Assembly (NCBI RefSeq): GCF_002000365.1
Contig: NZ_MVBK01000018.1
Span: forward strand, 68,528-115,516
Origin: Thioalkalivibrio denitrificans
GTDB lineage: Bacteria > Pseudomonadota > Gammaproteobacteria > Ectothiorhodospirales > Ectothiorhodospiraceae
Direction: 5' to 3'
DNA: 46,989 nt
The first letter of the stretch is position 1. Each line of letters starts with the position of its first letter. Positions 4,362 to 46,989 of this stretch are shown here, piece by piece. The translations under genes and the position numbers were made by a program. The notes under the pieces were generated by a model. That model saw only the letters and a program-made list of their open reading frames with translations, made no database searches and was not told the DNA's origin.

Positions 4362-5111
4362 TCAGCCAGTGGCTTCCTGGTCACTCTGGTAGACGTGGCG
4401 GGAGGTGTTGACCAGCGAGCGGCGATACTCCACGGGCTTGGAGTGATAGGTGAAGGCGATACGGTCCACCTGGAGCACCGGCGCGTTGACCTCGATATCC
4501 AGCAGGTTTGCCTCGCTCTCGTCCACTGCCACGGCACGCAACTGCTCGGAGGTGCGGATGATATTGAGGCCGAAACGCTCCTGGTAGAGCTGGTATATGG
4601 TGCCGGGCCGGTTGCTGAAGGTGTCGCGGTCCAGACCCTCGAACACCTCCGCATCCACGTAGATGTCATTCACCTCGACAGGATACCCTTCGATGCGCAA
4701 CAGGTTGCGCGCATGGATCACGCGTGCACCCTTGTCGAGCCCGAGCCGCGTCGCCACGTTCTGCTCGGCGCGGATACGCCGGAACTGCAGGAGTTCCGGT
4801 GTGGGGAATCGCTTGATGCCGTCTTCGTCGACAACATGATAGAAGTGATAGAGAAAGCGGCTCTGGGTGTGCGCGGCCACGAAGGTGCCGCGGCCCTGCT
4901 GGCGCACCAGGATGCGCTCGGCCGTCAGTTCGTCGATGGCCTTGCGCACCGTGCCGATGCTGACGTCGAAACGTTCTGCCAGGCGCGATTCGCTGGGTAT
5001 GGCCTCATTGGGTTTCCACTCGCCGTCGGCGAGGCTCTGGGTCAGGAGGCTCTTGACCCGCTTGTAGAGGGGCCCCCGACCGATATCCGCTGCGCTGATC
5101 GTCCCGTTCAT
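4362..5111 (-). CDS. GntR-family regulator, HutC subfamily with UTRA domain
   Basis: A 249-residue transcription factor. The N-terminal winged helix (about residues 12-78) reads PLYKRVKSLL, then IPSESRLAERFDVSIGTVRKAIDEL and the wing VRQQGRGTFV. The remainder is a UTRA ligand-binding domain (about 95-240). HutC regulators are usually repressors released by a small acid or amine. It is transcribed alongside cuyA and lies beside the sulfonate genes, so it is the likely regulator of both arms of the island, possibly through the CTAGGTCAT-type repeats in the divergent promoter region. That link is inference. The start ATG at 5111 follows a weak ribosome site. Confidence 0.9.
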   Translation of the reverse strand: MNGTISAADIGRGPLYKRVKSLLTQSLADGEWKPNEAIPSESRLAERFDVSIGTVRKAIDELTAERILVRQQGRGTFVAAHTQSRFLYHFYHVVDEDGIKRFPTPELLQFRRIRAEQNVATRLGLDKGARVIHARNLLRIEGYPVEVNDIYVDAEVFEGLDRDTFSNRPGTIYQLYQERFGLNIIRTSEQLRAVAVDESEANLLDIEVNAPVLQVDRIAFTYHSKPVEYRRSLVNTSRHVYQSDQEATG

Positions 5112-26282: not shown

Positions 26283-26300
26283 CCGGCGCAATAGAATCGA

Positions 26301-26395
26301 GGAGAGGATGGTACCCGGTGGTATTCACGGGCTTCAAACCCGATGGGGGGCGGTGAAACCGTCCCTGGCAGGTTCGACTCCTGCCCTCTCCGCCA
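26301..26395 (+). tRNA. selC: tRNA-Sec (UCA anticodon)
   Basis: A 95-nt long tRNA with encoded CCA (26393-26395) and discriminator G. The anticodon TCA is at 26334-26336 in a CTTCAAA loop. The D stem has 6 bp (26310-26315 with 26320-26325) and a 4-nt loop, and the variable arm is long (stem GGGCGGT/ACCGTCC), both tRNA-Sec hallmarks. The 3' strand from T-loop to discriminator is 12 nt, so the acceptor/T branch is 7+5 (or 8+4 with an A-C mismatch) instead of the usual 8+5. The top of the anticodon stem has an A-A mismatch. Placement directly after selD supports function. Confidence 0.95.
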
Positions 26396-45912: not shown

Positions 45913-45952
45913 TGCGCCCCTCCAGCCACATGGCTGGAGGGGCGCACGTTTT
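45913..45952 (+). terminator. Strong intrinsic terminator after the rhodanese
   Basis: A perfect 16-bp stem (TGCGCCCCTCCAGCCA at 45913-45928 and its complement at 45931-45946) has a 2-nt CA centre and is followed by CGTTTTGG. It ends the exported-protein and rhodanese transcript. Confidence 0.85.
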
Positions 45953-46098: not shown

Positions 46099-46126
46099 AT
46101 TTAACATAATATACATTATGCGAACT
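46099..46126 (-). other. Chromosome dimer resolution site dif
   Basis: On the minus strand this 28-bp site reads AGTTCGCATAA, TGTATA, TTATGTTAAAT, that is XerC arm, 6-bp centre and XerD arm. The centre and XerD arm match E. coli dif exactly and the XerC arm differs at two positions. XerCD resolves chromosome dimers here, which places the window end at the terminus. A second, altered copy lies at 46815. Confidence 0.92.
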
Positions 46127-46133
46127 AGACGAT

Positions 46134-46158
46134 GGGGCTGACGCCACCCGATCCCCCG
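46134..46158. repeat. Element-end repeat after dif, copy 1
   Basis: GGGGCTGACG then CCACCCGATCCCCC starts 13 bp after the CGAA of the dif XerC arm. The same sequence, with a G for C after the first ten bases, starts at 46850, also 13 bp after CGAA of the second dif-like site. It marks repeated ends of an integrated element. Confidence 0.75.
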
Positions 46159-46253
46159 GGATTTCAGGCGCTTGCGGCACCGATCTTCTGGGCTTGTCTA
46201 TATTTAAACAAAGGGGAAATTCAGGGGGACCGGAAAGCCTGCGCGGGGTGCCG

Positions 46254-46989
46254 ATGCGGGCCCTGCAGCATCCCGAGTACCGGGATCTCAAGGATCTGCG
46301 CTGGCGACACCTCGGGCTCAACCTCGAACAGGCGGCCGAGCGCTGCGGGGTGTCTCCCCGGGTGTTCCAGCGCTGGGAGCGGCAGAACAAGGCTCCCGAG
46401 CTGGCATTGCGCCTGCTGCGCCTCCTGGGCGGGGAGCTGGGCCTGATCGATCCGGCCTGGCGGGACTTCCACCTTGTGCGCGGGCGGCTGTTCTACGGCG
46501 AGGACCCCCGGGGCTATGAGCCGGGTCATGTGGCGCTGCTGTCCTCATTGCTGGCGGATCGGGCTGTGACGGCGGCTGAACGGCGGAAGGGCTGCGGGGC
46601 GGGGATTGGCAAGGCCCTGCCGCCAACCCCCGCCCCCGAGGCTTCTGACGGGCTACCACCCTCCTCTCCGGAGTCACCATCGGACTCGTGGCCACGATCG
46701 AACTGGAGTCTGGTCGGCCAGTCCACGCCGACCCCCCTTGGAGACCGAGCCCATGCCCGGGCGTCCTCGAAGGGACAAGCTGCCGCGAAAGTCGGGGAAC
46801 GCGGGCCGAACGTGCTTAACACTGCCTATACATTATGCGAAATATACTCCGGGGCTGACGGCACCCGATCCCCCGCTGGTTCAGGCACAGACCGGGGCAT
46901 TGCGCCCAGGCACGCCGCGGTGCCGGATCCCATGCAATGGGTTGCTGTTGGCCTTGCGGGGATTCCGTTGGGGACTGTAATTAAATCTG
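46254..46989 (+). CDS. Xer recombination activation factor-like protein (partial, open at window end)
   Basis: A frame from ATG 46254 open to the window edge (245 codons). Residues 1-105 resemble VC1465/XafT-type Xer activation factors: YRDLKDLRWRHLGLNLEQAA, a helix-turn-helix GVSPRVFQRWERQNKAPELA, then LRLLRLLGGELGLIDPAW and GYEPGHV. These phage-encoded proteins drive XerCD recombination without FtsK to integrate at dif. From about residue 105 on the sequence is proline and serine-rich with no known domain, and the frame runs through the second dif-like site and on to a hydrophobic end (MQWVAVGLAGIPLGTVIK). The natural C-terminus is therefore uncertain. Placement between dif sites strongly supports the call. 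Confidence 0.75.
   Translation, partial: MRALQHPEYRDLKDLRWRHLGLNLEQAAERCGVSPRVFQRWERQNKAPELALRLLRLLGGELGLIDPAWRDFHLVRGRLFYGEDPRGYEPGHVALLSSLLADRAVTAAERRKGCGAGIGKALPPTPAPEASDGLPPSSPESPSDSWPRSNWSLVGQSTPTPLGDRAHARASSKGQAAAKVGERGPNVLNTAYTLCEIYSGADGTRSPAGSGTDRGIAPRHAAVPDPMQWVAVGLAGIPLGTVIKS
46815..46842 (-). other. Second dif-like site with degenerate XerD arm
   Basis: On the minus strand it reads ATTTCGCATAA (XerC arm), TGTATA (centre), then GGCAGTGTTAA. XerC arm and centre match dif, but the XerD arm is largely lost. Attachment sites of TLC-type phages share this asymmetry. It is 716 bp from the first site and probably separates two tandem element copies. Confidence 0.8.
46850..46874. repeat. 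Element-end repeat after dif, copy 2
   Basis: Second copy of the GGGGCTGACG repeat at 46134, at the same distance from the XerC arm. Similarity between copies fades after about 45 bp, so the two elements share their ends but not necessarily their cargo. Confidence 0.7.

Follow-up and report, generated by a model that had tools for sequence, protein, structure and literature searches.

The right end of this 46,989-nucleotide stretch of DNA (hereafter the window) carries the chromosomal dif site, the place at which bacterial chromosomes normally come unlinked, together with one short gene and what looks like a second, damaged dif, which raises the question of whether so little DNA can constitute a mobile element that uses the host Xer system and, if so, of which class. 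A system to compare it with is TLCphi, a satellite phage of Vibrio cholerae that is reportedly a TLC-type IMEX (integrative element exploiting Xer) carrying the protein XafT, and that is said to have been described by Midonet et al. in 2014 and 2019. We consider it likely that the region forms the left-hand portion of an array of TLC-type IMEXs, arranged in tandem at the host dif, in which unit 1 comprises one attachment site and one gene for a XafT-like activator. The features on which this reading is built are as follows.

46099-46126, plus strand: intact chromosomal dif, the left end of the inserted array (ATTTAACATAA-TATACA-TTATGCGAACT; XerD arm ATTTAACATAA, centre TATACA, XerC arm TTATGCGAACT)
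46110-46826, plus strand: unit 1, a 717-bp cassette measured from the centre of the first site to the equivalent position in the centre of the second
46110-46988, plus strand: xafT frame without a stop over 293 codons; it runs from the TAA in the XerD arm of dif across xafT and its tail, passes the second site and reaches the contig end
46254-46589, plus strand: XafT-like activator core of 112 aa (HTH, beta-hairpin and long helix, from profile match and structure model)
46596-46636, no strand assigned: strong hairpin immediately following the xafT core, with an 11-nt loop between 15-nt arms that are 93% complementary
46816-46843, plus strand: TLC-type attachment site, at which unit 1 ends on the right and unit 2 starts (TTAACACTGCC-TATACA-TTATGCGAAAT)
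46827-46989, plus strand: start of unit 2 in tandem; over its first 60 nt it shares 83% identity with the beginning of unit 1, and the contig end truncates it

The dif at 46099-46126 is of the proteobacterial type, with the XerD arm reading on the left, and was the sole match in the 3.64-Mb genome in a scan allowing up to 3 mismatches, confirming the near-perfect dif proposed in the initial annotation. The order of the genes to its left is shared with the dif loci of genomes of the same genus. At the second site the XerC arm is intact and the centre matches at 6/6 positions, while the XerD arm (TTAACACTGCC) is lost, with 3/11 matches; its recognition as a TLC-type site therefore holds, but the site lies one base to the right of 46815-46842, where it had first been placed. 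The sequence GGGGCTGACG does follow both sites at the same offset, as had been noted, and the repeat extends beyond it to 60 nt with 83% identity (46110-46169 and 46827-46886). The 15-mer TATACATTATGCGAA occurs twice, 717 bp apart, against a chance expectation of 4.5e-6 for a window of this composition. Since the 60-nt repeat recurs at 717-bp spacing, a second unit begins at 46827, so that the claim of at least two element copies in tandem was correct, while the unit length of 716 bp given with it has to be replaced by this start-to-start spacing. A search of 30 other dif loci, most of them from the same family, turned up no second half-site.

The one gene of unit 1 encodes an HTH core. The reading frames of the unit include no recombinase gene, and the visible 717-bp unit has no packaging gene, no Rep and no autonomous replication module of the kind found in TLCphi, unit 2 continuing beyond the contig end. 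No sigma-70-like promoter was found within the unit, and the ATG at 46254 is a guess for the xafT start, with GTG or TTG codons upstream also possible. The GC content of the core by codon position (0.80/0.46/0.84) follows the pattern of a real gene. An AlphaFold2 model built on a 12-row alignment predicted, with confidence, an HTH, a beta-hairpin and a long helix to residue 116, followed by a low-confidence tail, and fold searches gave weak matches to XRE-type HTH domains and nothing else. The hairpin at 46596-46636 is possibly an origin or packaging signal.

Profile searches covered about 1,400 genomes. A first search with the window protein in 96 genomes gave two distant matches, both beside dif. 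With a four-row profile, 13 loci below 1e-8 were found in 369 genomes and 11 of these adjoin dif, while among the weaker HTH matches of the same search 1 of 17 lay beside dif, and that one (G306) proved to be a true relative. Later searches added further relatives, including two proteins with homologues in Vibrio phages (Vf33 and fNo16-like). The relatives were found solely by profiles run over whole genomes; searches with single proteins or close pairs against phages, plasmids, viral contigs and GTDB contigs returned no relative, or one that was weak or already known. The best PHROG match of the window protein was phrog_1668 (4e-7), which proteins of other dif-inserted elements match too, and a relative in G003 passed the Pfam cut-off for DUF3653 (3e-11), the window protein itself falling below the Pfam cut-offs. 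The protein family is thus bound to dif. The initial annotation had likened the gene to XafT-type activators and had counted a lack of similarity to XafT in profile searches among the results that would speak against it; the profile searches and the association with dif in many genomes both support the likeness. The label XafT-like denotes a profile relation to the XafT-like/DUF3653 proteins of dif-inserted elements, as distinct from the sequence of TLCphi XafT itself, which we take to be an HTH protein of the same kind.

Small complete att-to-att units at dif were found in the following genomes.

G170: 1582 + 1605 bp, tandem units, single-contig genome
G152: 1417 + 1507 bp, tandem units
G370: 1213 bp
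G003: 1663 bp
G841: 1763 bp
G785: 1810 bp
G845: 1131 bp, single-contig genome
G195: 930 bp, followed by a truncated second copy
G295: 1212 bp

Among the units with examined reading frames none had a recognisable Rep, the family searches covering genes other than those of G841 and G785 and the second genes of G152. Complete units of this kind, which span 0.9-1.8 kb and include two tandem pairs, lend weight to the early idea of a very small, satellite-like cassette. With a protein family bound to dif and complete units below 2 kb, some in tandem, the window element is best read as a miniature TLC-type IMEX, and such units recur at dif across Gammaproteobacteria. The two XafT-bearing units of about 1.6 kb in G170 (locus L079, 4430-7645) are 97% identical; those of G152 (L087, minus strand) also bear XafT and measure 1.4-1.5 kb. 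Both tandem pairs would make good experimental models, that of G170 in a genome of a single contig.

Two sequence elements are shared among these units, neither of which is present in the window unit: an origin-like motif, CCCCGTAGTCCAC, common to G170, G370 and G054, and a hairpin, GGCGGTCCYTGTAACACCGCC, common to G170, G003 and G002 (with one change in G002). In the form GGCGGTCCYTGTAACACCGCC-CTTA the hairpin lies at 4883 and 6465 of L079 (plus strand), 8410 of L039 (minus) and 7842 of L038 (minus), in distant hosts and in elements with no recognised Rep. It is a candidate replication origin or regulatory element, and its sharing among units that lack a Rep gene would be in keeping with satellites that are replicated in trans.

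The xafT frame runs through the degenerate site, which has lost the TAA of the XerD arm, and with a unit of 717 = 3 x 239 it would never end on an excised circle. Within one XafT subclade the complete units, four of four (717, 930, 1131 and 1212 bp), are divisible by three and keep the xafT frame open round the whole circle, att included, compared with 0/8 units outside it. The fourth case, G845, was found after the pattern had been noted in the window, G195 and G295; its 1131-bp unit has one frame without a stop and 8 to 16 stops in each of the other five, and the frame ends three codons past the GAA of the right XerC arm, inside flanking DNA. In G295 the orientation of xafT is opposite to that of att. 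In a tree of 22 XafT cores, the four closed units and a remnant in G412 clustered together (90/86, which is not full support), with branches of about one change per column.

Dinucleotide shuffles gave a product P of 6e-8 for the stop-free tails; the open 5' parts (0.004) and the lengths divisible by three (0.012) together gave P 5e-5 for closure. The tails have no codon-position bias, so any selection looks directed against stops rather than for protein sequence, and the stop-less frame is kept across deep divergence despite unrelated tail sequences. Three observations temper the pattern. An antisense HicB-like gene overlaps the tail in G295, and such an overlap can itself hold a frame open; in G412, 82% identical to G195, a stop follows soon after the core in a unit left incomplete by the contig end; and G785, without closure, has an open xafT frame of 330 codons, so long open tails occur outside the subclade too. 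The gene in G295 is of the HicB/Arc-like ribbon-helix-helix type, antisense to the xafT tail (L088, minus strand, within 136-1348), and adjoins repeated ATATCGTTGTGATATC-like sequences; an RHH-like gene is present in G785 (L097) as well.

A frame that is closed on the circle, with no stop and a length divisible by three, leaves the excised form without a translation end of its own. On a circle or in a tandem array, translation would have no end inside the element, and integration would supply the frame borders, namely the TAA in the XerD arm of dif and a stop codon within flanking DNA. We raise, tentatively and as a rather doubtful proposal, the idea that one-gene Xer cassettes of this kind form a lineage whose activator frame is endless on the circle: in the excised or tandem form ribosomes would pass through att without stopping, with concatenated XafT or non-stop translation as the outcome, and the frame would gain borders solely by integration at dif. 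If this is true, frame topology would report, and could control, the integration state. We know of no earlier case of a stop-less circular frame in a DNA mobile element.

The most serious alternative is that unit 1 is an immobile remnant, left by an internal deletion in a larger TLC-like phage that kept the end and the activator, and that its open frame simply follows from high GC. There are indeed truncated copies (unit 2 of G195, and G306, G412 and G002), and for the window unit alone a stop-free frame is only modestly unlikely by chance (P 0.04). It sits poorly with the recurrence of tiny complete units in several families, some in tandem, with the normal codon-position bias of the xafT core and with the four subclade units, all closed and in frame, and we regard it as unlikely.

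Comparison within the genus bears on a further alternative, that the gene is a host-domesticated Xer regulator retained beside dif for chromosome dimer resolution. In G004 and G001 dif is empty, closely followed by a symporter gene and with no second site. In G003 a 1663-bp insertion lies exactly at dif: the intact dif comes first, next a DUF3653 protein encoded on the opposite strand, and last GCGGAAGATCA-TATACA-TTATGCGAACT. G002 carries a decayed relative of this element. With two genomes empty and two occupied, dif is a repeated target in the genus. The position of the window gene directly at dif, with no other gene between the two sites, is what a domesticated regulator would also show, but the presence of the gene is patchy (a detectable homologue in 2/47 genomes of the host's order), the same site holds different elements within one genus, and the second site is TLC-like with units in tandem, which makes domestication very improbable. 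An assembly artefact, in which unrelated pieces were joined at the contig end to give a chimeric second site, is hardly credible even for a feature less than 900 bp from that end, as the second site has its own diverged 60-nt context rather than a copy of the first and the same architecture occurs inside long contigs and in single-contig genomes.

The window is the right end of a 115516-bp contig (C18) in a genome of 167 contigs; the rest of unit 2, and any third (outer) site or phage genes to the right, would lie beyond it. Another contig of the same genome, C141, carries the symporter gene that follows dif in relatives and probably sits to the right of the array, the join being missing. C141 was also considered as the right end of the array itself and rejected: its first 460 bases share merely chance-level 9- and 10-mers with the unit and contain no XerC arm. 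A small coiled-coil-like gene lies between the contig start and the symporter (L048, 1-463). The amidohydrolase gene that comes next in G003 and G004 did not turn up in this genome.

How a miniature TLC-type IMEX might move is suggested by TLCphi, whose attP keeps the XerC arm and the centre but has lost the XerD arm, and which integrates XerD-first and independently of FtsK (PMC4246890, PMC5357621); XafT is its XerD-activating factor (PMC9765430). By analogy, the chemistry here would be XerD-first and XafT-driven: the window protein would activate XerD as XafT does, contacting it and bringing about strand exchange without FtsK between dif and a site consisting of the XerC arm and centre alone. 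Because such an exchange pairs an intact dif with a site lacking the XerD arm, integration would regenerate an intact dif on one side, with the degenerate site remaining on the other; run in reverse, the exchange would excise the circle. The window element resembles TLCphi in its insertion at the host dif with an intact dif regenerated (the locus being empty in G004 and G001), in a second site whose XerD arm has degenerated beside an intact centre and XerC arm, in its XafT-type activator and in its tandem arrangement. Dependence on other phages, known for TLCphi, is suspected here, and our preferred guess is that the cassette spreads as a satellite through the replication or packaging of a co-resident filamentous or TLC-like phage. 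TLCphi differs in having an autonomous replication module (PMC4246890), whereas the window unit is 717 bp long with one gene, no Rep and a stop-less xafT frame.

Distant members of the protein family are carried by Vf33, fNo16-like and other Vibrio phages, but these are full phages of 8-15 kb, and the window unit has no structural genes. Acinetobacter dif (pdif) modules are, like the window unit, short stretches of genes between Xer sites. Most of them are found on plasmids, where the pdif sites alternate in orientation; their cargo includes resistance genes, and they are not known to carry an activator. Integron cassettes are non-replicating one-gene circles with one recombination site that insert in tandem at a fixed site, as the window unit would. 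They use the integron integrase and attC hairpins, in contrast to XerCD, dif and an activator of its own in the window element. Elements of this class have been described before; what appears to be new in this one is its size, its content of a single gene and its stop-less frame. These features extend Xer-exploiting elements down to one site and one activator gene, near the imaginable minimum for a self-activating mobile cassette, and make two questions testable: what a Xer-exploiting element needs at the least, and whether integration can control a gene through frame topology.

An endless frame has a precedent in neo of the DRT2 defence system, a never-ending ORF formed by concatenation through rolling-circle reverse transcription of an ncRNA (PMC11100668). 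In both cases a repeat unit has a frame open across its junction, so that concatemers encode an endless ORF. The likeness is one of frame topology: in the window case Xer recombination would produce the circle or tandem array, which would consist of DNA, and the unit contains no reverse transcriptase gene or template ncRNA.

Two further features of the window may be recorded: a predicted selenocysteine tRNA at 26300-26394 and, between a rhodanese-like gene and dif, a strong terminator-like hairpin with a 15-bp stem at 45913-45946.
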